64,000 bases of DNA, from NCBI GenBank assembly GCA_028284705.1, contig JANQRE010000023.1, positions 1 through 64,000 of the forward strand. The letters are read 5' to 3'. Of the stretch, positions 24 to 54,084 are shown piece by piece; positions within the stretch are counted from its first letter, which is position 1; each line of letters opens with the position of its first letter. The notes under the pieces were generated by a model. That model saw nothing but the letters and a program-made list of their open reading frames with translations. It was not told the DNA's origin and did no database searches. The stretch is from Paracoccaceae bacterium (lineage in GTDB: Bacteria; Pseudomonadota; Alphaproteobacteria; Rhodobacterales; Rhodobacteraceae). The translations under genes and the position numbers were made by a program.

Positions 24-98
24 TCCGGCGTAGCTCAGCGGTAGAGCAGTTGACTGTTAATCAATTGGTCGTAGGTTCGATCCCTACCGCCGGAGCCA
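24..98 (+). tRNA. tRNA-Asn (anticodon GTT), encoded CCA; 3' half serves as attL
   Basis: TCCGGCG acceptor stem (24-30) pairs with CGCCGGA (88-94); anticodon loop CTGTTAA with GTT at 56-58; GTTCGATCC T-arm; CCA at 96-98. Confidence 0.93.
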
Positions 99-100
99 AA
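52..100 (+). repeat. attL direct repeat (3' half of tRNA-Asn)
   Basis: 49-bp identity with 13860-13908. Confidence 0.9.
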
Positions 101-119
101 ACCCCAATAAAGTCAGATA

Positions 120-144
120 GATGTGAGATTCTGCATCTCACATC
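120..144. repeat. Perfect 10-bp inverted repeat with 5-nt loop (GATGTGAGAT-TCTGC-ATCTCACATC)
   Basis: Read directly; lies between attL and the integrase gene. Confidence 0.8.
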
Positions 145-208
145 TTGGCCAGAATCTGCCTTTCACATACCTTACACACAGTACACACTGTGGTGGGAAT
201 CTGCGGAT

Positions 209-1387
209 ATGGCCGAGAAGCACACGATTTTAGGTGGCAAAGTTCACGTATACAAGCGCGAGCGCAGCTCGGTTTGGCAGTGCTCGACCTATCTTGAAGG
301 TAAGAACCGTCGCGTTAGCACAAAAGAAGAAAGCCTCGCCAGAGCGAAGGAGTTCGCCGAGGATTGGTATCTCGAACTCCGGGGCAAAAAATCACGTGGT
401 GAGCTACTATCGGAGCACACGTTTGCTCACGCAGCTGATCGCTTCATGAAAGAGTATGAGCTCATGACCGCAGGTGAGCGAAATGAGGTCTATGTGAACG
501 GACACAGAGGGCGTTTGAAGAACCACCTGATACCGTACTTCGGGAAAATGGGCATCTCTCAGGTCACATCCGGTGCCGTGCAGGACTACCGGATTTTTCG
601 GATCGAGCCGAAGGACGAACCGAACTGGAAGCCACCATCACGATCTACCATGCACCATGAAATCGTGACCTTGCGCCAAGTCTTGAAGACAGCCTTACGT
701 CAGGGTTGGATTCAGGGTCTGCCTGACCTCTCGGCCCCCTATCGGGCTTCAGGGAAAGTGGTGCATCGCGCTTGGTTCTCGCACGAAGAATACAAAACGC
801 TCTACACTGCAACTCGTGCCAACATCAAAAGCCAGCTGAACTCACGCTATCAAATGCTTGCCGCCCAGCTGCATGACAAAGTGCTATTCATGGCCAATAC
901 CGGTATTCGTCCTGATGAAGCCAACGGCTTGGAATACCGGGATGTCGAGATCGTCGAAGATGACGCAACCGGCGAGACGATCCTCGAAATAGAAGTCAGA
1001 GGAAAGAGAGGGGTCGGTTACTGCAAAAGCACCACCGGTGCTGTCCGACCCTTTCAGAGGATGATGGACCGCAATCAGCCGGAACAGACTGACCGACTTT
1101 TTCCAACCGCGCATAACCGACAATTCAATCGTATTTTGGAGGAGACCGGCCTCAAGTTCGACAGACAGGGCAACCGCCGCACGCTCTACTCCTTGCGTCA
1201 CAGTTACATCTGCTTTCGGTTGCTTGAAGGCGCTGACATCTATCAGATCGCCAAGAACTGCCGCACCAGCGTTGAGATGATCGAGAAGCACTACGCAGTT
1301 CACTTAAAGAACAGCTTGGATGCCGCAGCAATCAATGTCCGAAGATCAAAAAGTTCGGGCGGAAAGCGGACCTCCACTACGGCCTAG
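209..1387 (+). CDS. Tyrosine recombinase / phage-type integrase
   Basis: TGIRPDEANGL (catalytic Arg box), SLRHSYICFRL (HxxR-like box), EKHYAVHL (catalytic Tyr). Start set at ATG 209 (MAEKHTILGG) because the ORF-track start lies inside the tRNA. Confidence 0.88.
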   Translation: MAEKHTILGGKVHVYKRERSSVWQCSTYLEGKNRRVSTKEESLARAKEFAEDWYLELRGKKSRGELLSEHTFAHAADRFMKEYELMTAGERNEVYVNGHRGRLKNHLIPYFGKMGISQVTSGAVQDYRIFRIEPKDEPNWKPPSRSTMHHEIVTLRQVLKTALRQGWIQGLPDLSAPYRASGKVVHRAWFSHEEYKTLYTATRANIKSQLNSRYQMLAAQLHDKVLFMANTGIRPDEANGLEYRDVEIVEDDATGETILEIEVRGKRGVGYCKSTTGAVRPFQRMMDRNQPEQTDRLFPTAHNRQFNRILEETGLKFDRQGNRRTLYSLRHSYICFRLLEGADIYQIAKNCRTSVEMIEKHYAVHLKNSLDAAAINVRRSKSSGGKRTSTTA

Positions 1388-1505
1388 ATCAACTGCCAAA
1401 AGCGCAGGAAGCGGACGTTGCAAAGTCTGCGCCATGTAACCGATTTGACCTCGACGAAAGTTGCACGAGACTGTTCATTTCATAAGCAAGCGTTAAACAT
1501 GCATC

Positions 1506-3236
1506 ATGTCGATTCACCTAGAAGGCGTTGGTGCGCGATTTTATCGTGGAATTGGTCCCGACCCACAACTTGTTGGCCCATTCAAAAAAATGAACTTCTT
1601 TGTTGGGCCGAACAACGCCGGGAAATCCATAATCCTCAACCTGGTTGCCAACCACATCAAAGGCAATGCTGGCGGCAAGGTGAATGATCAACTTAACCCA
1701 GAAGAAAAATACACCGGTAAGCAGTCAGGAGAGTTTGCAAGCGCATTTGGTTTGAGTACTGAACGCGTTCTCGAAAATCTCGACGTCTATAAGCGCGATA
1801 TTTCTGTTGGCCAGGCCCTCAAGGAAATCGTAGCGAAACTGTCTTTTGAAGGTTTGGTTTGGACAAGAACAAATGGAACAGGGCTATTTCACGAGTTTGA
1901 TAGCAAAAAAATCAAAGGCTTCCTCCCAATCGAACAACATTGGCAAGGGGTTTGGCATACGCTGACGGGACAGCTTGACGGTGGAATAGATCAACACTGG
2001 ATACCAGAAACGCTGGAAGTGATCGTAAAGGCTGCCAGTCCAAATCTACCAGACATCCACCTGATACCAGCCAAGCGGCAACTAGGGCCGAAGGGCGAAG
2101 AACTGGCTGACAACTCCGGACGTGGTTTGATTGACCATTTAGCGAAGTTGCAAGCTCCCAGTTTTGACCGGCAAGAGGACAGGAAAAGGTTCGACCGTAT
2201 TAACTCATTCGTAAGCGACATCACAGGGAAGTCAGGCGCACGCCTGGAGGTACCAAGTGAACGTGAACACCTTCTGGTGCACATGGACAATAAGGTGCTA
2301 CCGCTTTCATCGCTCGGCACCGGAATACATGAGGTAGTGTTGATCGCAGCCTTTAGCACCATTCATGATGGTTCGATCATGTGCATTGAAGAGCCAGAGA
2401 TACATCTCCATCCTTTGTTGCAACGCAAATTAGTACGTTATCTTATGGACGAAACTGCCAGCCAGTACTTCATTGCCACCCATTCGTCGGCGTTCATAGA
2501 CACACCGGGATCAGCTGTTTTTCATGTCATGAACGATGGCGTTCAAACCTCCGTTCGAGCGGCGCTGACGAAGAACGAACAACGCGCGATCCTTGATGAC
2601 TTGGGGTGTCAAGCGTCTGATATTCTTCAAGCCAATGCCGTTATCTGGGTAGAAGGACCATCTGACCGAATACTGCTAAACCACTGGATCACAGCGGTCG
2701 AACCCACGCTCAAAGAGGGAATACACTACACCATAATGTTCTATGGCGGCTCATTGGTGAGCCATCTTACGGCATCCGACGATGCGTTAGACCGGTTCAT
2801 TAATCTGCGTGAGCTGAACAGGAACATGGCTGTGATTATTGATAGCGACAAGTCCCACCCAACTGATCCACTCAAACCACATGCACGGAGGTTGCAAGAC
2901 GAATTAAAAAAGGAAGGCGGTATGGCATGGATCACAGCGGGTCGAGAGATGGAAAACTATGTCGATGGCCAGCGTCTACAAAAAGCTCTCAAAGGCTTGC
3001 ACCCAAAACTGTACGTTAAGCCGGGTAAGATTGGTCAATTCGACCACGCCTTCTATTTCTATCGAAAGAACCCGGCAAAACCAGGTCGGCTCGAAACATA
3101 TAAGAACGGCGACAAAGTCGGCGCGGCAACGATCATCGCCAATGCTCCAGCTGACTTGAGCATTCTGGACTTACGAGTGCGCATTGAGCAATTGGTGCAC
3201 TATGTATCACAAGCCAACGGGTTGCCGAGGGAGTAA
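1506..3236 (+). CDS. OLD-family-like AAA ATPase with C-terminal TOPRIM domain
   Basis: Walker A GPNNAGKS; Walker B/signature MCIEEPEIHLHP; ATHS H-loop; TOPRIM-like WVEGPSDR ... VIIDSDKS. Confidence 0.8.
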   Translation: MSIHLEGVGARFYRGIGPDPQLVGPFKKMNFFVGPNNAGKSIILNLVANHIKGNAGGKVNDQLNPEEKYTGKQSGEFASAFGLSTERVLENLDVYKRDISVGQALKEIVAKLSFEGLVWTRTNGTGLFHEFDSKKIKGFLPIEQHWQGVWHTLTGQLDGGIDQHWIPETLEVIVKAASPNLPDIHLIPAKRQLGPKGEELADNSGRGLIDHLAKLQAPSFDRQEDRKRFDRINSFVSDITGKSGARLEVPSEREHLLVHMDNKVLPLSSLGTGIHEVVLIAAFSTIHDGSIMCIEEPEIHLHPLLQRKLVRYLMDETASQYFIATHSSAFIDTPGSAVFHVMNDGVQTSVRAALTKNEQRAILDDLGCQASDILQANAVIWVEGPSDRILLNHWITAVEPTLKEGIHYTIMFYGGSLVSHLTASDDALDRFINLRELNRNMAVIIDSDKSHPTDPLKPHARRLQDELKKEGGMAWITAGREMENYVDGQRLQKALKGLHPKLYVKPGKIGQFDHAFYFYRKNPAKPGRLETYKNGDKVGAATIIANAPADLSILDLRVRIEQLVHYVSQANGLPRE

Positions 3237-3366
3237 CACTTGCTACGGCCCGTAGCCGTTTCGGTCACTTAGGGAGAGGCGGCAGCAAACGTCCACTTCG
3301 GGCTGCCCTGCTTGGTTGCTACATTAGTCATAACTTATGCACCGGATGCGATCGCTAGCGAGTTTG

Positions 3367-3876
3367 CTACCATTCTAATAGTTGCTCTATCGCACCAGCT
3401 CCGCAGCGCACTGCAATGCCATTCTTCTTCAGGAGCTTTGCTATGCTACCCTTTGAGTTAGCTTTGATCTGTTTTTTCTTTGCAGCAGTCCAAGCTTTTG
3501 CTTTCGGTTCGAATAGATCAATGTCTTCAGAAACAATGAGTTTAGCTTTTGCTCCCATGGCAGTGCCTACCCACTTGTAGTCTTTTGACGGGAGGCCACA
3601 TCTTTCACACTCTTGTTTCAGATCAGATGCTTCTGCATATTCTTTAACAAGACCCTTGGCTGCCATATCGGCCAGCCAATCAAGTAGATTGAGCCCCACA
3701 GCGCCAGGTGAACATGTCTCTGCGTATTCCTGTATGATCTTACCCTTACGATCCAGTGAGATGTGGCCCTTGTTGCAGACTTCATCAATGAGATGGCAGT
3801 ACAATCCAGAGGATGCATCCAAGCGTTCTTTTTGAAAGTAAGCCATGCAGTTTGTGTCAACAACAATAGGATTCAT
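3367..3876 (-). CDS. PIN-domain-like nuclease
   Basis: N-terminal VVDTNCMAYF; C-terminal KDYKWVGTAMGAKAKLIVSEDIDLF resembles the conserved acidic PIN core; starts 2 nt after the stop codon of the upstream ATPase gene. Confidence 0.65.
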   Translation of the reverse strand: MNPIVVDTNCMAYFQKERLDASSGLYCHLIDEVCNKGHISLDRKGKIIQEYAETCSPGAVGLNLLDWLADMAAKGLVKEYAEASDLKQECERCGLPSKDYKWVGTAMGAKAKLIVSEDIDLFEPKAKAWTAAKKKQIKANSKGSIAKLLKKNGIAVRCGAGAIEQLLEW

Positions 3877-3878
3877 GT

Positions 3879-5225
3879 TTAATTTCTAGAGAATAGGTCT
3901 AGTTGATTCTCTCGCGCTGAACTCTTTTGTGTAGACGCGCGCGCGAGCGCAAAACTCTCTTTTTGGCGCTGTGGAAAGAAATCCCCCGGCCAAGACTGGC
4001 CAAAATCTCCGTTTTCAGAGATTTTCACATTCGTTACCTTTCTGCCCGTCGCACTGTCTTCAACGAAGAATATTCGCACATCGTCAGGCGAAAGGTCTCC
4101 AAGTGCAACATGTCGTGCAACCCGCAAAACTAGGTTATCGCTGTGCGTCTCAACTAATACCTGTCCTACGTTCCGAGCAATCTCTACAAAGAATGAACCG
4201 AGTTCGGCCTGCGCATTGGGGTGCAGATGGATTTCCGGCTCCTGAACAACCAACAGTCCGCCAGCTCGCTTGTGAACCTGATTCAGGAATTGAATGCCCG
4301 ACACCAACACCGGCAAGACTTGGCTTACTCCGAATCCAACATCGCAGATGTTGTGTCGCGTTCCATCGCGGCCGATAACCGAAACTTCAAAATGTCGATC
4401 TGTAAGGTGCCGAACTTCGAGGCCCTGAGATATATTTGTCCTCTTTAGCCACTCTGAAATAATCGGGACAAATCCGATCTGCTCTCTTCCTCGCTTGTTG
4501 GAATCGTTGGCCAGCATTGTTATGGCGTTTTGACCGTTCTGCCCGACCCTATCGGCTGTTTCTCCCGAAAAAAGGTAGGTCCTCTCTGGTTGAACTCTAA
4601 ACGGAGAGAGTGTTTCGTAAGCAGAAAAAAAGTCTCGAGTCCTCCGCGAAAACGAGAAGAGCACTCTGTCTGTATTTCGCAACAATTCGATGGTTTCTTC
4701 ATTTGGAGCAGAGTCAAGATCCCTATGTATCGGCAGCGCACGTGAGATTGGCAAAAAACCGTCAAAACGAGGCTTTCGCTTTGAGATTACGTTTGACAAC
4801 TGCTCGATATCCCTGCCGCCGACTTTGAAATCAAATCGATCAGAGGTCTGACTAAAGCCAACAATAGGCTTCTGTTTTTGGTAGAGTTCAAATCCACCGA
4901 GCTCGACTTCACGACGTTGGGTTCTGTATTTGTAGTCAAGCTTTAGCTGGTAATCCCAAATCTTCAGGGCAAATTTGACACGCGTACCCGCATGGCCTCC
5001 ATGAACCATGTCTTTGAACGTACCAAGATTGTCGAATGGTCCGTTTAGTAGCAACGGGCTGCTACCCGAAGCCGGGTCAAGTGTAGTCTGTGCGAGAACA
5101 TTGAGCGCGCTTAGAGCACTCGACTTTCCTGAATTATTGGCCCCGACAATTATGTTCAACTTACTGAATGGAAACTTTTGCTGCCTAAACGCGCGAAAGT
5201 TTGTGAGTGTGAGTTCAGTTAGCAT
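3879..5225 (-). CDS. AAA family ATPase with DUF3696-like C-terminus
   Basis: Walker A GANNSGKSS; LVVQEPEIHLHPNAQ; VETHSDNLVLR; C-terminal VKISENGDFGQSWPGDFFPQRQKE. Confidence 0.8.
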   Translation of the reverse strand: MLTELTLTNFRAFRQQKFPFSKLNIIVGANNSGKSSALSALNVLAQTTLDPASGSSPLLLNGPFDNLGTFKDMVHGGHAGTRVKFALKIWDYQLKLDYKYRTQRREVELGGFELYQKQKPIVGFSQTSDRFDFKVGGRDIEQLSNVISKRKPRFDGFLPISRALPIHRDLDSAPNEETIELLRNTDRVLFSFSRRTRDFFSAYETLSPFRVQPERTYLFSGETADRVGQNGQNAITMLANDSNKRGREQIGFVPIISEWLKRTNISQGLEVRHLTDRHFEVSVIGRDGTRHNICDVGFGVSQVLPVLVSGIQFLNQVHKRAGGLLVVQEPEIHLHPNAQAELGSFFVEIARNVGQVLVETHSDNLVLRVARHVALGDLSPDDVRIFFVEDSATGRKVTNVKISENGDFGQSWPGDFFPQRQKESFALARASTQKSSARENQLDLFSRN

Positions 5226-5494
5226 TCAAACCGCTGCTCCAGATACGCTATCCTATTCTGTGCCTTCCACCCGGCATCGATAAATGACAGGACCTGGTTG
5301 ATTTTATCTAGATGAAACTTCGAAGCCAACCGGTTGATGCTGGTGTCGCTAGACCCAAGCAAATCCGCATAAGCCCTTATATCCTCAATTGTCTTAGCGC
5401 CGCCAATGTCTGCTTCGGGCTGCGACCGGAAAACAGATTGAATTCGTCGGATGACCGCTTCGAGCCATTTACCGAATGCTGCACAACACGCCAA
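5219..5494 (-). CDS. Small hypothetical protein upstream of and overlapping the ATPase gene
   Basis: Stop codon overlaps the ATPase start (ATGCTAA). The N-terminal part spans a dispersed repeat copy and has no ATG, so the true start is uncertain. Confidence 0.35.
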   Translation of the reverse strand: MACCAAFGKWLEAVIRRIQSVFRSQPEADIGGAKTIEDIRAYADLLGSSDTSINRLASKFHLDKINQVLSFIDAGWKAQNRIAYLEQRFEC

Positions 5495-5511
5495 GGCTGC
5501 TTTGCGGATTG

Positions 5512-6507
5512 CTATCGCTTAATAGACCAGACCATTGCGGTCTCGTAGCCGGCAGATTCCAGCAGCTTGGTCTTAGACGCCCATCCCGCCGGACAGACGA
5601 CAAAGGCGGCTCCCATACCACGTTTGGCGAACGCCGCCTCGGCCGCACGCAAAAGCGCATTGGAAGCTTCACTACCTCCGTCAAGCCCCGCCGGGTTGGC
5701 CAGCTCAGGGTGGTAGTAGTCATCAATGACACCTGTCCCCGTGATGTCGTGGGCCGGGGGAAAGTGGAGCCGTGAGGCGGGCTGTGCGATGACGTAGCCC
5801 TGCAAATCCTCGGACTCGCCAAGAACCATCATGTCCCGATCGCGGAGCGCTAGGCTCCGCGTCATCCAGGCCGAAAATCGTGGATCAGCTTCGGGGTGAA
5901 TTTCCCAGAACGGGTCGATGTCAAAAAGAACCTGACGGTTCTCGGCGCTGCGTGCAACGATGCCAGAAACATCGTCTTCCGTCGCTTGTCGAACTCCGGT
6001 GGGCATTCCTTGATCGCCAAGGTCACTGCGTGACAGATAGAGCGTAAGAGGTTCATAGCCGCTTGCCTCAAACGCGGTTGGCCAGATTTCGCCAGCGACG
6101 TAGGACGCCAGTTTGCTCTTGGCACCAGCTTCGTGAAGGACGTCTTCGGCTGCGGCCAACAGGCCTTCAACAGTGCCGTTTGGCGCATCGGCTGCAACGA
6201 AGGAGTCAGACAGGATCAATCCCGGCTCCCCAAGCGGGCCAGTATAGATGGGCGGCACTGGCAGCATCATCGCATGAATGACACCCGTGAGCTGACCCCC
6301 ATCCTCCGCGACATGCCAAAACTGTTGAAAGGGTTGTTGTTCGGCCGTCAGCGCAAATGTGAGCGCCTTCTCGATCTGCGCGGGCGCGTCATCCGCCATC
6401 TTCCAGAGGATAGCATCCTCTGCATGGCGTTCCTGCGCATCCAGCATGAGGAGCCCGACCAGGCGCGGCATGTCGTCGGGTGTCGCTGGTCGGATTGTCT
6501 GGGTCAT
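5512..6507 (-). CDS. GNAT family N-acetyltransferase
   Basis: MTQTIRPATPDDMPRLVGLL start; two-lobed GNAT-like pattern; C-terminal GMGAAFVVCPAGWASKTKLLESAGYE. Confidence 0.75.
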   Translation of the reverse strand: MTQTIRPATPDDMPRLVGLLMLDAQERHAEDAILWKMADDAPAQIEKALTFALTAEQQPFQQFWHVAEDGGQLTGVIHAMMLPVPPIYTGPLGEPGLILSDSFVAADAPNGTVEGLLAAAEDVLHEAGAKSKLASYVAGEIWPTAFEASGYEPLTLYLSRSDLGDQGMPTGVRQATEDDVSGIVARSAENRQVLFDIDPFWEIHPEADPRFSAWMTRSLALRDRDMMVLGESEDLQGYVIAQPASRLHFPPAHDITGTGVIDDYYHPELANPAGLDGGSEASNALLRAAEAAFAKRGMGAAFVVCPAGWASKTKLLESAGYETAMVWSIKR

Positions 6508-6631
6508 CGCTCGATCCCTTGTAGCTATTGCTGAGTGCTGCTTCCCCGTTTGTATCGGCGGCCTGCAGCAAATTGACAAAGCAGGATAATTCCATCAGCG
6601 TTTAGAAAAACTATCGCCTTTGAGGCATCGT

Positions 6632-7495
6632 ATGAAGAACGTCAACCTGAACGCGCTTCGGGTGTTCTATGTCGCCGCATCGCACGGGAACCTGCAACGC
6701 GCAGCTGAGGAGCTGAACCTATCGCGTGGCGCAGTGTCTCAGCGGATCAAACAGCTCGAAATTGAGCTGGGGGTGGTTCTTCTCGTGCGTGGCGCACGCG
6801 GTGTCTCGCTGACCCCTCAAGGCGAGCGCTGCCATGCTGCGATGGAAGGCGCATTGGCGATCCTCGACACTGCCTTTGTGAGCATCGGCGGCGGCAGTGA
6901 TCGCGTCACGCTACATCTTGGTTCATCCACCGCAACGAAGTGGTTGATGCCTCGAATGGACGCTTTCGCGGCCAAGTTTCCGCATGTAGCACTCACGACA
7001 CAGGTCCACGAGCAGGTTCTGGCACGCAGTCTGGGCCGGAACGAGATCGCAATATGGCCCGGTGAAGCGCATGACACGAATTCAGCTCACGGATCGCGCC
7101 GCTTGGCCGACATCAGCCTAATTGCCGTATGTAGTCCTGATTTCCTGCGACCGGATTGGCCAATGGGGCTGGAGACACTGCTGACGCTGCCGCTCCTTCA
7201 GGATGCGCACCGGCGGTGGGAAAAGCTGATCCATGAAACCGGGTATGGAGACATGCACAAGCTACTCAACTTCGACCGATCTGCATTGGCTCTCGATGCT
7301 GCTATCAGTGGTCACGGCGTTGCCATAGCGCCGACCTACATGGTGGAGAATGATCTTCGGTCAAATAAACTGGTGGAGATTTGGGTCGATCCCGACCCCT
7401 CTAATGATGGGCTCTATATCTCATGGGCCAAGGATCATTTAGGCCAGACGCGCATCAAGCGGATCGTCGATTGGATCGCTTCAGAGTTTGAATAG
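6632..7495 (+). CDS. LysR family transcriptional regulator (GcvA-like)
   Basis: N-terminal LNALRVFYVAASHGNLQRAAEELNLSRGAVSQRIKQLEIELGVVLLVR winged HTH; divergent from the GNAT gene. Confidence 0.9.
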   Translation: MKNVNLNALRVFYVAASHGNLQRAAEELNLSRGAVSQRIKQLEIELGVVLLVRGARGVSLTPQGERCHAAMEGALAILDTAFVSIGGGSDRVTLHLGSSTATKWLMPRMDAFAAKFPHVALTTQVHEQVLARSLGRNEIAIWPGEAHDTNSAHGSRRLADISLIAVCSPDFLRPDWPMGLETLLTLPLLQDAHRRWEKLIHETGYGDMHKLLNFDRSALALDAAISGHGVAIAPTYMVENDLRSNKLVEIWVDPDPSNDGLYISWAKDHLGQTRIKRIVDWIASEFE

Positions 7496-7641
7496 AAGCA
7501 GACCTTCGACCTGCGAAGAGGAACGGCAGAAAAAATGTCCGCTCCGCCGACATCGAGCGGCGTGATCCAATGTCTGCTTCGGGCTGAGATGGACGGGCGT
7601 TGGACAGAGCCTCGACGCAATTGTAACTTTCATCCGGTCGC

Positions 7642-7866
7642 ATGAATTTTGGGATTTTAATGATGAGAAGACCCAACAACCGAGAGCGAAAAGTGCTTAG
7701 AGAGTTTGCAGGCAAGCCTGAACCTTGGGGGCGTTTCGCAGGTGCAGGTAAGGCTACATTGACGAGCCTGTTGAATGAAGGTTGGATCAGGCCAAACACA
7801 GATCCCAATTACCCACCAGAGTATTTCGAAATCACAGAGCTCGGTGAAGAAGCAGCTTATCTGTGA
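7642..7866 (+). CDS. Small hypothetical protein (winged-helix-like)
   Basis: 74 aa with a plausible fold-like pattern LREFAGKPEPWGRFAGAGKATLTSLLNEGWI; homology not testable here. Confidence 0.5.
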   Translation: MNFGILMMRRPNNRERKVLREFAGKPEPWGRFAGAGKATLTSLLNEGWIRPNTDPNYPPEYFEITELGEEAAYL

Positions 7867-8093
7867 TACCCAAAAGGGTTCTCTCTTGTCTGCAGTCGAA
7901 TAGGGAAAGTTCAGGTCTGCTTTGAGGCCGGGCAACAGGCAAAGACGCTTTTTGGGGCCTCAGAAGGTTCCGTCCAACAACCCCACGAATCTCGCAAAGC
8001 TGCCGCTCCATTCCGATTTGCCGCACAAACGCTTCCGACTGCTTATTCTTCGGTTCGTGGCTAACTTCGGCCACACATCATAGGAATGAAGAG

Positions 8094-8249
8094 ATGATGC
8101 CAACAAAAATAACAATGAATATCCAAGCCGTCCTTGAAGCCGTTGAGGCTGACCACCGACAGACCTCTCGCGGCGAAATTATGGAACTCGTCCAAGTCTA
8201 TGACGAATGGGGTGAAACGCCAATCGAGCTGCTGCTCTGGATCGCCTAA
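8094..8249 (+). CDS. Small hypothetical protein, 51 aa
   Basis: ATG with GA-rich upstream region; MMPTKITMNIQAVLEAVEADHRQTSRGEIMELVQVYDEWGETPIELLLWIA; followed by GGGGCGC/GCGCCCC stem at 8256-8274. Below the ORF-track cutoff. Confidence 0.45.
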   Translation: MMPTKITMNIQAVLEAVEADHRQTSRGEIMELVQVYDEWGETPIELLLWIA

Positions 8250-8500
8250 CCTGTTGGGGCGCGGCGAGCGCCCCACCTATTTCCGCGCCGCTTCTGATCC
8301 GCAGACGGAACGAAATGCAACCTTAGCTGAGCTGTCCCATCTGCTGCCACAACCTATGTCTCCTTAGGGCTGGCACCTGTCAGCTGACGGAATTTGTCAG
8401 ATGTCGGGAAAGAGCCCCTGGATGATTAGACGCCAAGTTTTTGAGGTTTGATCACGGGGCATATTTGGTCGGTCGTCGTCTTACCCAGCCTTGCTGAAGT

Positions 8501-8851
8501 CTATGAAACAACTCCGGGGAGATACCATCCAGTGCGCTTGCCCAGCTGCGGGTTTTCTTGCAGCGACGAGCTAAGAACCCGATGTCCGCTTGCCGTAATC
8601 TCGTAGACTTTGCGCTTTCCCCCTCGCCTGTCGGAAACTGGCTCCACAAATCTATGTTTTACCAAACCTTTGTTTTCGAGCTGATCGAGCGTCCGATAAA
8701 TCTGAGGCAAGGCAATCGCGTCTTCGCGTTCGAGCAGAGTGCGATACATTTCGCCACCGTAAGCGTTTTCCTTCAATGCGAACACCAGCTGAAGCAATGC
8801 CAACTGACGACCACCGAGAACAATTGTACTTGGATCTTTCATCGGTCTCAT
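8501..8851 (-). CDS. PadR family transcriptional regulator
   Basis: YGGEMYRTLLEREDAIALPQIYRTLDQLENKGLVKHR...RRGGKRKVYEITASGHRVL; start MRPMKDPS directly after the upstream ORF stop at 8854. Confidence 0.75.
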   Translation of the reverse strand: MRPMKDPSTIVLGGRQLALLQLVFALKENAYGGEMYRTLLEREDAIALPQIYRTLDQLENKGLVKHRFVEPVSDRRGGKRKVYEITASGHRVLSSSLQENPQLGKRTGWYLPGVVS

Positions 8852-8853
8852 GC

Positions 8854-9490
8854 CTACGCTCCTGTCCACCTCTGCACGAGCTTCGTTACGCTCTTCACGA
8901 TTGGAAGGTTGTCGATCCACACTCGCCCGATCGAAACGTAAAGTCGTACAGTAGCGTATCTGTTCCCAAATTCGACACGGTCGGCCTCTCTAGCATCCCG
9001 CAGATCCGACACCTTCGATTCGTAGTCATCTCGGGACAAAACCAGGCGCAAGAGGCCAGCAGGGATCTTATCGTTGTCAATTCTGGTTCTCTTGAATCTC
9101 AAGCCGTGAAAGGCAAATAAGCGGGCTTGAGATTCAAGAATAAGTAGCTGCCTAAACATCTCACGTGTTCTCACGTCCCAGTTAGTGCCACCTTTCACGA
9201 ACTTGTCCAACTCTAAGAGATCGCTCTTGGTGACCGCTCTCAAAACATCCATGCGTAATTCGGGCTCACGGTGCCCGGGTTTCATTAGTGCTTCCCTCGC
9301 CCCTTCAATGATTTCGCCCCTTCTGACGCCGCCAATGGTCAAGCCTGGGTTGTAAGGAAGGTTCAGGCCTTCGTAGATTTTGGCAGTTTCGTCGTCCTGC
9401 TTCCACTCTGACCCAAAAGTGGACGTAACTTCGCGACAAACGCAGTCTTCTTGTTCGCAATGTGCGCAAGTTTTCGGTTTGTCTGCCATA
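8854..9490 (-). CDS. Hypothetical protein with N-terminal Cys cluster (CAHCEQEDCVC)
   Basis: Start MADKPKTCAHCEQEDCVCREV; adjacent to the PadR gene. Confidence 0.55.
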
Positions 9491-9776
9491 TGCCACTCCA
9501 AATTTAACTTGTTACTAAACAAGTTATTCAAGGAAGTCAATTTTATTGCCTATTGCACCGTGGTTAACGGAACAATCAGCGTTCATCTTGTAGATTGATT
9601 TCGATTTCCAATGGGAATTCCCCTGAGAAATCCACTTCGGGAAAATTCTCTTCAGCTACAATATCAGAGCGCTTCAAGAGCAATGCGACCCACGACGTTA
9701 ACACGGACGTAACGCGCCTGACCTTGTCCCGACACTTCGTATGTCGGAATTTTTCTCAATGTCACAATCCGGAAAC

Positions 9777-9914
9777 TTATTTTGCGCGACGCAAGGCGAG
9801 CACTGTGACACAAACGATTGAAAGCGCGGCAATAACCGCGACAATCGCCAAGTTTCCAGACGCCTCGCCTTCTAAAAACCTGCTTACTATTTTCATTTCG
9901 CTTTCGTGGTCCAT
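9777..9914 (-). CDS. 45-aa putative single-pass membrane protein
   Basis: MDHESEMKIVSRFLEGEASGNLAIVAVIAALSIVCVTVLALRRAK; GGAG 8 nt upstream of the ATG. Below the ORF-track cutoff. Confidence 0.5.
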   Translation of the reverse strand: MDHESEMKIVSRFLEGEASGNLAIVAVIAALSIVCVTVLALRRAK

Positions 9915-10408
9915 GCTACCAACTCCATTAGCTTACAATGCCTTGAGCGTAGAGCCGCCGAATTAATCGGGGGCGGCGATGATCCACTTTTCAAGAAACC
10001 TAAGGGACGTCACAACACCGTTAGCGTTAACACGATGGAATTGGTCCATTTTGCGTCGGATCTGCTCAATTTATTGGGCGGTGTCTCGCTTCATTCCGCC
10101 GCACATGTGAGCGTTGAACACCGCTTTGGTACAGATGGCACCTGCCCCGCCACCTTGCGTAGGGCCACCGCGCACTAGGCTTCCGCCGGCGGGTCGGCTT
10201 ACACATGTGGACATTGCGGGGGTTGAGTGAAACGGCAGCAATTGTCCGCACTGCGGTCAAATCAGAACGTCGGATGAATGTCCGCTCCGGGCTGGTTCCT
10301 TCTCATACTGTTGGCTCATGCCGTGGGCGGCGTTCTAGGAATGATGGCCGCTGGGATGTTGATCACGGAAGGCTGCGACCAGCAGTCAGTAAGTTCTCAG
10401 CCCCTTGG

Positions 10409-10645
10409 TCACGGTGGACCCTTGTAGAAGAACGCCTTGCAGCGATCATGCAAGTTGTGGGTGTCGGCAAACGCCTTGTTGCATCGGCGCGATGCCATCT
10501 GTCCTAGCACGTCTGGCGCCAACGCATCCAGCCCATAGACACGTGCCAATTCAAACCGCGAGCACACTGCAATGCGCTGGCACTCCCAGCACAAAATGAC
10601 GATTGGCTCGTCTTTCAGGTCTCGAATCCGTAGTGCTCCACCCAT
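10409..10645 (-). CDS. Small hypothetical protein with CxxC motif
   Basis: MGGALRIRDLKDEPIVILCWECQRIAVCSRFELARVYGLDALAPDVL; compact protein-like composition. Confidence 0.45.
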   Translation of the reverse strand: MGGALRIRDLKDEPIVILCWECQRIAVCSRFELARVYGLDALAPDVLGQMASRRCNKAFADTHNLHDRCKAFFYKGPP

Positions 10646-10719
10646 TGTGTTGAGTAAGAACATAACAGGAACAAAAGCAAGCGTTGCAGCACGCTCTTGA
10701 GCACTTCGGTCGGGCCAAC

Positions 10720-11376
10720 CTAGACCGGCTCTTCTTTCATCCCGACGCCTTCCCCGATCAGCGAAAGCTCCCCGGGATAGGGTTGCAGCATGGCAAAGGC
10801 TTCGTCTGCCTCTGCTCTCAGCCAGGCTTCGTATTGTTCAGGATCGAGGATGACTGGCATGCGCGTGTGGTACTTCGATGCGAACTCGTTGGGCGAGGTT
10901 GTCACCATCGAATGGAACACGCCATCCACCTCGGTATCGCCGACGAGGCCCTTCCTATACTGCCATATCCCTGCGAAGGCGAAGGCCTCAGCTCCTGATG
11001 GGCGAAACCAGTGGTAGGTCGCAGGCTTGCGGCCTGTGGCTTCGGCATATGCGGTGGCCGGGATAAGGCAGCGCCGTTCCTCAAATGATTTGCGCCACAT
11101 GCCGGACGTTCTGATCTTGTCGTCTCGCGTATTGTTCCAGGCCTGCGGCTTAATCCAATTGCCAGTCTTCTTACTCTTGTTGGGTGTCAAAAATCCCCAG
11201 CTCGACCGCACGAGCGCCCGGTCCCCCAATTTTCCTATGGCGACAATCGGTGCTTCGCCTTTCGGGTAAATCGCAGGCAGGGCGGGCATGTTTCCGAGGT
11301 TAGATTGCTCGACGGAAACATCGAACAACTGCCGCATCGCCTCATGGGTGGTCAGATTGGAGTGTAGGTTGCACAT
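10720..11376 (-). CDS. SOS response-associated peptidase (SRAP / YedK-HMCES family)
   Basis: Starts MCN (catalytic Cys2); WGFLTPNKSKKTGNWIKPQAWNNTRDDKI; RRCLIPATAYAEA; FAFAGIWQ; YHTRMPVILDPEQYEAWL. Confidence 0.92.
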   Translation of the reverse strand: MCNLHSNLTTHEAMRQLFDVSVEQSNLGNMPALPAIYPKGEAPIVAIGKLGDRALVRSSWGFLTPNKSKKTGNWIKPQAWNNTRDDKIRTSGMWRKSFEERRCLIPATAYAEATGRKPATYHWFRPSGAEAFAFAGIWQYRKGLVGDTEVDGVFHSMVTTSPNEFASKYHTRMPVILDPEQYEAWLRAEADEAFAMLQPYPGELSLIGEGVGMKEEPV

Positions 11377-11512
11377 CAGGCCATTTTGAAGCCGAAGTCA
11401 GGTTTGCACAATGCGGACAAAACGGACAACAGGGCAGCGACAACCCAGACCTCACGTCACCTAAGCACTTGCCACCAAAAATGCTGCAAAGCATCTTGAC
11501 CTTCAACTAGGT

Positions 11513-12190
11513 GTGCGAGGAATTTTTAAGTTGATTTACCATCCTGATCCTACCGAGTTTATTGCGAATTCAGGAGACTATGGCGCCTTAGGCAAGACGT
11601 TGGTTGAACTGTCAAGCCTAGAGTTCGCTCACGACAGCTTCGTGTTCAAAATGCACGAAACAAACCGCGACTTATCTCTCAGTCTCGCGAAGCGGTTTCC
11701 TCGACACTTTAAGGAAAAAACAGACTTCCTGATTAATGCTGTGACCGGTGTTTCAAAACTACGACAGGTTCCAATTTTTCAGACAGGAGAACTTAACCTT
11801 CTATGGCTACAGTACCAGTTGGACGAGCTCTACGGTGTAAGATCCATAATTGCACATGGCTCAGTATCCCTTTCTGAAACGACACCTAATCGTATCACCT
11901 GGACGTTTGAACGTTTTGTGCAAAAAGAGAGGAAAAACTGGACTCGTGAAGCGGTGAAAATGTCAAACGGCTACCTTGCTAGCGTCCATTGCACAGCTTC
12001 GGTGATAAGGCGGTATCTCTCGAATTTAAGAAGATGTCTAGAAGGCGGTTTCTGTTGGGAGGAAGTGTATCAGACGGACAAAGAAATTAGACTGAACCGA
12101 AAAATACTTGCTGAAGTTGCAGCCAGTGGTGTCGTTTCTGCTGACAGTGGGTGGATTGGCTCGTTACCACCACTGGGCCCGGTGGAGTGA
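11513..12190 (+). CDS. Hypothetical protein with HEPN-like Rx4H motif
   Basis: Contains YGVRSIIAHGS (R-x4-H) in a predicted helical context; GTG start. Confidence 0.5.
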   Translation: MRGIFKLIYHPDPTEFIANSGDYGALGKTLVELSSLEFAHDSFVFKMHETNRDLSLSLAKRFPRHFKEKTDFLINAVTGVSKLRQVPIFQTGELNLLWLQYQLDELYGVRSIIAHGSVSLSETTPNRITWTFERFVQKERKNWTREAVKMSNGYLASVHCTASVIRRYLSNLRRCLEGGFCWEEVYQTDKEIRLNRKILAEVAASGVVSADSGWIGSLPPLGPVE

Positions 12191-12334
12191 ATCCCGTATT
12201 GGGATCAGTGATTTGGTCGCCTTTTTTGCCAGATGGCCAGCTGCGTGTTGCTGTTTCTCAAGGACCGGTCCCATCCGCTTAGCAACGCGATGGCGAAATG
12301 TCCTGCACTTGTTTGATCTCGAACATTGAGCTTT

Positions 12335-13771
12335 TCAAAACTGACCGTGAGAGTCCCATAGACCATGTTCGAGTTGTGACCGAATGGTGTGCACTATGTT
12401 GGATGGATCGTTCGAATTGAGCGAGACAAGCCAATTCTGAGGCTCTATTTCAACGGTTTTTCCAGACACCCTTCTGTTCGAGGTGGTGATTTTCGTGATT
12501 TGGCGCTTCTGGGCTGGATCGGCGAAAACATGGCTAAGATGAAGGCTTTTTGCCCGTTCGAGGAATTGGCGCAGCTTATTGGCATCAATGCTCTGTTCCG
12601 CCTTCTGGCGAAGGGTTTCTTCGCATTTGGCGCGTTGGATCAGTAGGTTTTCCTTCATTTCATTGAACAGTGTTTCGTCGATGAGATCGTCAAGGAACTT
12701 CTCGGTGAGCTTCATCTCGCGGGTTCTGATTTGCTTGAGCTGTAGTTCGGCCTGTTCGCCAGAGGACTGTGTACTGCGGCCTTCAAGGTGCTGAAACACA
12801 CGTTGCTCGATTTCTAGCGCCGCGTCATCACTCAAACCGTATTGGAATAAGATGTTGCGGACTTGTTCATCGATCATCCGGTCGGAGATGCATTTCGTAA
12901 CACAGCCCCTGGTGTGGCATCGGTAGTAGACGTGCCCTCGCTGAAGCTCGCCAACCATGGCATTTCCGCAATCAGCACAGCGAAAGAGGCCGCGATAAGT
13001 GTGATTGTGCTTTGTATTCTTCTTGATGTTGCGCCCCTCTCGAAGAGCGGCGACAGCGGCAAAGAGGTCCTGTGAAATCAGCGGTTCGTGCTTGCCCGAA
13101 TACACCTTACCAGTTCGGCGAATTTTGATGATGCCAGTGTAAAATGGGTTTGTGAGGATGAGCTCAACGTTGGCGACATAGAGTTTCCGCCCAGTCCTCG
13201 TGGTCAGACCGCGTATATTCATCTCTTCAGTCAAGGCAACGTAAGAGTATTCACCAGATGCATAGAGCTCGAACATGAGCCGGACTAGTGGGCCGCGAAC
13301 CGGGCAGATGGTCTTCAGCTTGGCTTTGCCGTTGTCGAGATATCCCAAGGGCGCGGTGTATGGATACAGGCCTTCTTTCAGTCGGCCGATTTGCCCCTTT
13401 TTGCTCTCTTCTCTGTTGTTACGGATGAAATCTGCGGCAACTACAGCCTGGATGTCTGCCGCCAGCCTGCCGCCGCGCGTATTGAAGTCAAGCGCCTCGT
13501 GCGCAAAGTGGATATCTACGCCGATATCAGCAAGATCATGAATCCTTCCCCAGTCGCAAATGTTGCGTGAAGAACGGTCGATTTTGTGCACGATGAGACC
13601 ATCGGCCTTTTTCTGCCGCAAGGCTTTGATGATCTGATTGAAAATCGGGCGTTTGCTTTTAGCGGCAGTTTCGGTTTCCTCAAACCACCGGACCACGTTG
13701 AGATCGTGCGTTTCGGCATAGGCCCGGATGGCGTCTTTTTGCGCCTCAAAGTGCGTTTCAGCGTGCGTCAT
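12335..13771 (-). CDS. Large serine recombinase, N-terminally truncated (catalytic-serine segment absent)
   Basis: FEAQKDAIRAYAETHDLNVVRWFEETETAAK...GLIVHKIDRSSRN...recombinase domain, zinc ribbon RCADCGNAM...YRCHTRGC. No YxRVSTxxQ block upstream in any frame before the island end. Confidence 0.8.
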   Translation of the reverse strand: MTHAETHFEAQKDAIRAYAETHDLNVVRWFEETETAAKSKRPIFNQIIKALRQKKADGLIVHKIDRSSRNICDWGRIHDLADIGVDIHFAHEALDFNTRGGRLAADIQAVVAADFIRNNREESKKGQIGRLKEGLYPYTAPLGYLDNGKAKLKTICPVRGPLVRLMFELYASGEYSYVALTEEMNIRGLTTRTGRKLYVANVELILTNPFYTGIIKIRRTGKVYSGKHEPLISQDLFAAVAALREGRNIKKNTKHNHTYRGLFRCADCGNAMVGELQRGHVYYRCHTRGCVTKCISDRMIDEQVRNILFQYGLSDDAALEIEQRVFQHLEGRSTQSSGEQAELQLKQIRTREMKLTEKFLDDLIDETLFNEMKENLLIQRAKCEETLRQKAEQSIDANKLRQFLERAKSLHLSHVFADPAQKRQITKITTSNRRVSGKTVEIEPQNWLVSLNSNDPSNIVHTIRSQLEHGLWDSHGQF

Positions 13772-13781
13772 GCAGAAAAAG

Positions 13782-13802
13782 TTACACACATCATTACACA
13801 CA
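13782..13802 (+). repeat. Two TTACACACA direct repeats at the right island end (third copy at 172-180 at the left end)
   Basis: TTACACACA at 13782-13790 and 13794-13802; same-orientation copy at 172-180 plus GTACACACT at 181-189. Confidence 0.65.
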
Positions 13803-13859
13803 GAATTAATTCATGAATTAATGTATATATTTATCTGTTACTTAGCAGCTAGTATTGAC

Positions 13860-13908
13860 GACTGTTAATCAATTGGTCGTAGGTTCGATCCCTACCGCCG
13901 GAGCCAAA
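13860..13908 (+). repeat. attR direct repeat
   Basis: 49-bp identity with 52-100. Confidence 0.9.
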
Positions 13909-53238: not shown

Positions 53239-54084
53239 TTACTGACCGAGGGCCGATTTCACCTGATCCAGCACACCCTGTACCAGTTCGGGGTTGTCGC
53301 GCGCCTGCTCAAGCGCGGATTTCAGGGTGGTTTTCATCACCGCATTCAGGTCCGAGCCCTCGACCATGCCCAGCACGGTCTCGTAGTTGAACCCTTCGGG
53401 TGTCAGAGCATCGGTCGCGGTCTCCGCAGCTTCGGTGGTTTCCTCAGTCGCGGTTTCGGTCGCCTCCGTGGCCGTCTCGGCTGCTTCTTCTGTCACCGTC
53501 TCAGTGGCCTCGGTTGTCTCCTCGGTCACGCTCTCTGCCGCTTCGGTTGCCTCTTCCGTTGCGGTCTCGGTGGCTTCTGTCCCCTCCTCAACGGCTTCAG
53601 TCGCTTCCTCGGTAACGGTTTCCGCGGCCTCAGAGGCTTCTTCCGTAGCCTCAGTCGCTTCCTCGGTTACAGTTTCTTCGGCAGCTTCCGTCGTTGTCTC
53701 AACCGTTTCTTCGGTCGCTTCGACCGCTTCGCTGGCCTCCTCGGTCACAGTCTCAACGGCCTCCGCGGCCTCTTCGGTGGCCTCTTCTACAGCTTCTGTC
53801 ACCGCTTCAGTTGCGCTCTCTACAGCCTCTGACGCAGCTTCAGTCGCTTCCTCAACCGCTGTCTCCGTGGCTTCGGTCGCCGTTTCCTCGCCAGCCTCAG
53901 CAGCTTCAGAGGCCTCCGTTTCCGTATCGGCCGACCCGGTTTCTTCCGTGGCGCTCTCCTCGACGCTTACGCCTTCGGTTGGATCATCATCGCTTGAGAA
54001 CCAACCCATGGCACTTGCTGGCGCGACAGAGGCGCCGGACATTACAGCCGCGAGAGCTAATGCAGATACAACATGCTTACGCAT
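53239..54084 (-). CDS. Exported low-complexity Thr/Glu/Ala-rich repeat protein
   Basis: Signal peptide MRKHVVSALALAAVMSGASVAPASA; long degenerate TEEATEAA repeat; ordered C-terminus NYETVLGMVEGSDLNAVMKTTLKSALEQARDNPELVQGVLDQVKSAL. Confidence 0.85.
   Translation of the reverse strand: MRKHVVSALALAAVMSGASVAPASAMGWFSSDDDPTEGVSVEESATEETGSADTETEASEAAEAGEETATEATETAVEEATEAASEAVESATEAVTEAVEEATEEAAEAVETVTEEASEAVEATEETVETTTEAAEETVTEEATEATEEASEAAETVTEEATEAVEEGTEATETATEEATEAAESVTEETTEATETVTEEAAETATEATETATEETTEAAETATDALTPEGFNYETVLGMVEGSDLNAVMKTTLKSALEQARDNPELVQGVLDQVKSALGQ

Follow-up and report, generated by a model that had tools for sequence, protein, structure and literature searches.

A probable divergent relative of the candidate defence system HEC-03: an ATPase–PIN gene pair on a tRNA-Asn island

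Two adjacent minus-strand genes of a Paracoccaceae bacterium probably form an ATPase-gated PIN ribonuclease module that defends against phages through abortive infection or dormancy in a PARIS-like manner, a reading to which we assign a probability of roughly 0.6. They lie in the stretch of 64,000 nucleotides that was analyzed here (hereafter, the window). The combination of an ATPase and a PIN protein has already been catalogued as a candidate system, HEC-03, and the version in the window is a new divergent branch. We infer the anti-phage effect of the pair from its conservation, the predicted folds of its products, its mobile setting, its homology to HEC-03 and an RNA ligase that accompanies the sister family. 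Among these, the association with the ligase is the most useful new lead.

Table 1. Gene pair and island features in the window
Feature	Position	Strand	Basis or remark
tRNA-Asn(GTT), integration site	24..98	+	3' part (52-100) is attL
Tyrosine integrase beside attL	212..1387	+	ORF listed from 50, with a probable true start near 212
OLD/GajA-like AAA-TOPRIM protein, convergent with the pair	1506..3236	+	GajA model 9e-19, AriAB 1.5e-16
PIN-fold protein, 169 aa	3367..3876	-	ORF and predicted structure; proposed effector RNase
Junction: ATPase stop TAA, 2 nt, PIN start ATG	3874..3881	-	Sequence read
ATPase, 448 aa	3879..5225	-	ORF; Rad50/SMC-type ABC ATPase (NsnB/PDC-M55A/HEC-03B superfamily) that would act as sensor and gate
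Serine recombinase, right end of island	12335-13801		
attR, 49 nt identical to the 3' end of tRNA-Asn	13860..13908	+	Repeat match

The two genes and their predicted products

Read on the minus strand, the junction between the two genes is AGAAATTAAACATGAATCC, in which the stop codon of the ATPase (TAA, 3881-3879) is followed by 2 bases and the ATG of the PIN gene at 3876. Coordinates and sequence agree here with the initial annotation, which had placed the two codons 2 nt apart. The corresponding gaps in close relatives of the pair range from -4 to +4 nt, and translational coupling of ATPase and PIN at the junction is likely. Upstream, a small ORF on the same strand (5219-5494) has a stop codon that overlaps the ATPase start (ATGCTAA). 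It was considered as a third gene or a VapB-type antitoxin and rejected, being conserved in none of the fetched loci.

The ATPase belongs to the NsnB/PDC-M55A/HEC-03B superfamily. It matches the PADLOC models NsnB (4.6e-62), PDC-M55A (2e-60), HEC-03B (4.8e-44) and AriA (5e-29), as well as AAA_15 (4e-28) and AAA_21 (4e-19) of Pfam. The motifs are intact and comprise a Walker A (GANNSGKS), a signature-like segment (GFGVSQVLP), a Walker B (VVQEPEIHLHP) and an H-loop (ETHSDN), and the AlphaFold model (pLDDT 85.9) structurally matches Rad50, SMC heads, Septu PtuA and GajA. The label "DUF3696-like" given to this protein at the outset is marginal by score (a weak match at 5e-4, with 20.6 bits where the cut-off is 22) and is fitting for the superfamily, in which several proteins carry a DUF3696 annotation.

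The 169-aa protein carries the motifs previously pointed out in it (VVDTN, KDYKW and VSEDIDLF) and is not recognized by Pfam (PIN_3, E=0.17), NCBIfam or PHROGs. Its AlphaFold model, which was built from a 36-sequence alignment, reached a pLDDT of 96.0 and a pTM of 0.91. The PDB structures matched by this model were mostly PIN proteins, with VapC4 first and, in most of the 13 best matches, a probability of 0.97-1.00, followed lower down by minimal RNase P and, weakly, by the DNA-acting Exo1. When the PDB was searched by sequence, the PIN profile returned chance matches alone (dynein light chain, CXCL12), so the fold assignment rests on the model, by which the protein is predicted to have a PIN fold nearest to that of VapC toxins. 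Four acidic residues are kept among 36 relatives, namely D7 (36/36), E50 (33/36), D99 (35/36) and D118 (33/36), and further acids are present at D42 and D120. In the model, D7 follows strand 1, E50 lies in helix 46-55, D99 in helix 97-108 and D118 after strand 113-115, which are the positions that a PIN fold requires of its catalytic acids. The initial annotation had proposed a tightly coupled SMC-like ATPase and PIN nuclease, and both folds are indeed predicted for these adjacent genes.

Conservation of the pair and its relation to HEC-03

A single scan of 85,462 species genomes with the ATPase alignment returned 80 loci. The closest ATPase relatives, at 48-56% identity, belong to Limibaculum, a proteobacterial MAG, Mesorhizobium and Sphingopyxis, and further ATPases of the window clade to a Methanomicrobiales archaeon (37%), Bryocella (35%) and a Neomarinimicrobiota MAG (31%). 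Viral contigs (IMG/VR) scanned with the clade alignment yielded one prophage (L099, ATPase 52%), and those scanned with single proteins of the pair yielded nothing. Window-clade loci were found by ATPase similarity alone, and a PIN gene lies directly behind the ATPase, in the same order as in the window, in all eight of these relatives (L019-L025 and L099: four proteobacteria, the prophage, the archaeon, an acidobacterium and the Neomarinimicrobiota MAG). Most of their PINs carry the signature of the window PIN. Across related loci, a PIN is directly downstream of the ATPase in 77 of 84 (67 of HEC-03 type, 8 of window type and 2 intermediate), which is not an unbiased rate of pairing since most of the loci behind the ATPase alignment had been identified via the HEC-03A PIN. 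The co-occurrence elsewhere that the original proposal implied is found across phyla. ATPase and PIN distances are correlated (r=0.92 over 24 loci), with 0 of 2000 permutations as high. The pairing is beyond chance, and the two genes form a conserved, co-evolving module.

Loci L029, L033, L045 and L092 have a PIN behind the ATPase. Another partner takes its place in L027 (9354-10331), L057 (9348-10328), L063 (5505-6491) and L098 (9985-10761), where the same ATPase superfamily with an exchanged partner represents effector swapping. The replacement partners in L027, L057 and L063 are of ~325 aa with motifs such as HDRMM...GKGMDIF; that of L063 is weakly NsnC-like (0.043), and that of L027 matches Pfam MIT_C (PLD-like, 5e-4). 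L085 has a transposase-like sequence where the PIN would be, and L078 and L097 fall below threshold. Occurrence is patchy: there was no other ATPase match at 1e-30 in 386 genomes of the class, no other match of the PIN profile in 198 genomes of the order, and no match in plasmid and phage collections with the window-type PINs tried.

The statement that this combination belongs to no named system did not hold, given that PADLOC lists HEC-03, composed of a PIN protein (HEC-03A) and an ATPase (HEC-03B), as a candidate. The source for HEC-03, an Hma-embedded candidate, is reportedly a 2024 preprint by Payne et al. (10.1101/2024.01.29.577857). That work is cited in PMC12111858 and PMC12988326; in the literature found, HEC-03 is a candidate only and is given no mechanism. 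Among 399 genomes of the phylum, HEC-03A had 14 matches, and a homologous ATPase was directly upstream in all 14. The window PIN was matched by the PADLOC HEC-03A model only at E=0.019 and the PINs of six relatives not at all. When the window-type and HEC-03A families were compared profile to profile, they matched with E=3.8e-8 and a probability of 95%, and they are remotely homologous. As the PINs of the window clade match no PADLOC or Pfam model, present tools would miss this clade.

The ATPase tree separates a window clade of 9 rows (support 96/94) from a HEC-03B clade of 33 rows (support 100/99). Their grouping as sisters had a support of 85/58 and is favoured but unproven; the alternative trees were not rejected (p-AU 0.16 and 0.38), and one or two origins of the PIN pairing are both compatible with this result. 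HEC-03B scores the window ATPase below NsnB and PDC-M55A, and these two models are not specific, since they also match a HEC-03 ATPase. Judging by sequence comparison, the window pair is probably a divergent relative of HEC-03 within its own supported clade. By analogy it would work like HEC-03, which falls short of showing it to be HEC-03.

Mobile setting and the RNA ligase of HEC-03-type loci

A 13.8-kb island (52-13908), inserted at tRNA-Asn, carries both genes as cargo (Table 1). GC content is 51.7% inside the island versus 60.0% beyond it, and 45-48% in the pair. No clean empty site was found, the DNA to the right of attR not being joined to tRNA-Asn in congeners. The OLD/GajA-like gene is likely a second defence gene on the island; as a component of the system it was rejected, as it was not seen in the relatives inspected. 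Two side observations concern repeats. A 23-nt near-exact direct repeat (5403-5425 and 7567-7589), whose 18-nt core occurs only there in the genome, flanks 2.2 kb of island DNA in which a LysR regulator and an acetyltransferase-like gene are found, and an imperfect array of related 51-nt repeats occupies 53396-53887 in an apparent single low-complexity coding region.

Among the relatives, the prophage (L099, also L127; IMGVR_UViG_2937891427_000008) has an SNase-like gene on one side of the pair and a CI-type repressor on the other, on a contig with a GpA terminase, a lambda-type portal, an S49 protease and a baseplate J protein. An integrase adjoins the pair in L019, a tRNA gene lies within 500 nt upstream of it in L020 and L025, and in L021, L022 and L024 the pair is found among ordinary metabolic or chromosomal genes. 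Neighbours within 4 kb in the wider family matched 246 PADLOC models versus 13 for those beyond 5 kb (76 proteins each), a qualitative comparison in which models and not independent proteins were counted and one long helicase matches many models. These near neighbours match DISARM DrmD and DrmA (E=0), a type III methylase, HmaA and BREX BrxH. For the wider family, the defence-island enrichment suggested as a check in the initial annotation is seen in qualitative form. The idea of a new defence system is supported as far as the mobile elements (the tRNA-Asn island and the prophage) and the defence genes around the wider family go, and loses its novelty in that the combination is already the HEC-03 candidate.

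The HEC-03-type loci of Azotobacter, Rhodococcus and an Aeromonas plasmid are annotated as an ATPase, a hypothetical protein (which is the PIN) and an RNA ligase. With a ligase profile, the PIN was seen to be followed immediately by the RNA ligase in 41 of the 61 HEC-03-type loci with enough DNA (e.g., L120, L123 and L126), at 447-556 nt past the end of the ATPase in these 41. It belongs to PF09414 (2.9e-34) and is matched by no PADLOC model. Cleavage by PIN nucleases yields 3'-OH and 5'-phosphate ends, which are the kind that ATP-dependent RNA ligases join. The association therefore suggests that the HEC-03-type PIN cuts RNA and that the adjacent ligase provides built-in repair. The wider family pairs an SMC-type ATPase with a PIN-fold protein, and two thirds of HEC-03-type loci add a neighbouring RNA ligase left unmodelled by PADLOC. 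This link turns the question of what a HEC-03-type PIN cuts into a direct test, namely for RNA with ligatable ends.

On the side of the window clade, none of the 7 informative loci has the ligase and the window's genome yielded no PF09414 protein, so that the case for RNA as the substrate of the window PIN is borrowed from the sister family. A bolder proposal, which we hold tentatively and at somewhat less than even odds, is that the window pair is a distinct, uncatalogued type of ATPase–PIN defence in an RNA-cleaving lineage, of which the HEC-03 branch reseals the cuts with its own ligase and the ligase-free window branch acts irreversibly. If true, damage and repair would be joined in one operon in the HEC-03 branch, and the window branch would be the irreversible form.

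Proposed mechanism, alternatives and known systems

In PARIS, binding of a phage protein releases AriB from sequestration by the AriA ATPase, and the freed AriB cuts tRNA (PMC12409363). This hold of AriA on AriB makes PARIS the best model, and we propose that the window pair works likewise, with a PIN as the effector. The Rad50/SMC-like ATPase would assemble with the PIN and keep it inactive, and a phage-derived cue acting on the ATPase would free or activate it. The PIN, putatively a VapC-like metal-dependent endoribonuclease with RNA as its presumed substrate, would then cut structured host RNA, most likely tRNA, and thereby stop translation and phage growth.

On the one hand, the genes could be an addiction module of VapBC type, whose PIN toxin is neutralized by the ATPase and which serves mainly to maintain the island, with phage defence as an incidental effect. 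Such a module would fit the VapC toxins as nearest folds, the order of partner gene first and effector second with overlapping or near-overlapping junctions, and carriage by an integrative island. We consider it unlikely, given that the place of a small DNA-binding antitoxin is taken by an SMC-type ATPase of 448 aa whose motifs are intact, that the window-type PINs tried had no match in the plasmid collection, and that the wider family lies among defence genes. On the other hand, Rad50/SMC relatives recognize particular DNA ends or structures, and PIN domains are related in fold to FEN-type nucleases. A DNA-targeting system working in the manner of Septu or Gabija, with an ATPase that recognizes DNA ends or structures and a PIN that cuts invading DNA, would draw on the structural matches of the ATPase (Rad50, SMC heads, PtuA and GajA) and on the weak Exo1 match; it is less likely still, as the closest PIN folds act on RNA (VapC and, lower down, minimal RNase P) and an RNA ligase is part of the sister operon. 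A pair with a housekeeping or RNA-processing role that reached mobile DNA by chance in some genomes would suit the ordinary chromosomal surroundings of L021, L022 and L024 and is very improbable in view of the very patchy occurrence, scattered over Bacteria and an archaeon, the prophage and island carriage and the low GC.

The gated PIN ribonuclease that we prefer shares parts with several known systems. PARIS (AriA-AriB) likewise joins an ABC ATPase sensor, whose AriA model matches the window ATPase, to a small nuclease, but AriB is a TOPRIM protein and the window effector a PIN. Septu (PtuA-PtuB) is also a two-gene set of ATPase and nuclease, and the window ATPase model structurally matches PtuA, whereas PtuB is an HNH protein and the ATPases are just distantly related. 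Type II VapBC toxin-antitoxins have a PIN effector, VapC providing the nearest solved folds, but a small, DNA-binding antitoxin in the place of the ATPase. DS-3 and DS-5, from DefensePredictor, need a PIN ribonuclease for phage defence but lack an ATPase partner (PMC13092281); the same paper cites Payne et al. among several references for PIN and HipA domains validated elsewhere. Menshen (NsnA-NsnB-NsnC) and the candidate PDC-M55 have an ATPase of the same superfamily, but their effectors NsnC and PDC-M55B, of about 300-325 aa, are unlike the window PIN, for which neither the PADLOC models nor the predicted structure gave an NsnC or PDC-M55B match, and Menshen has an added DUF262 gene. HEC-03 has the same arrangement as the window, an ATPase followed by a small PIN, directly adjacent and on the same strand. 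It differs in that the window ATPase falls outside the HEC-03B clade, its nearest relatives read THSDNL where HEC-03 reads THSEHL, the C-terminal part of the window PIN is longer, and the window clade is without the RNA ligase.
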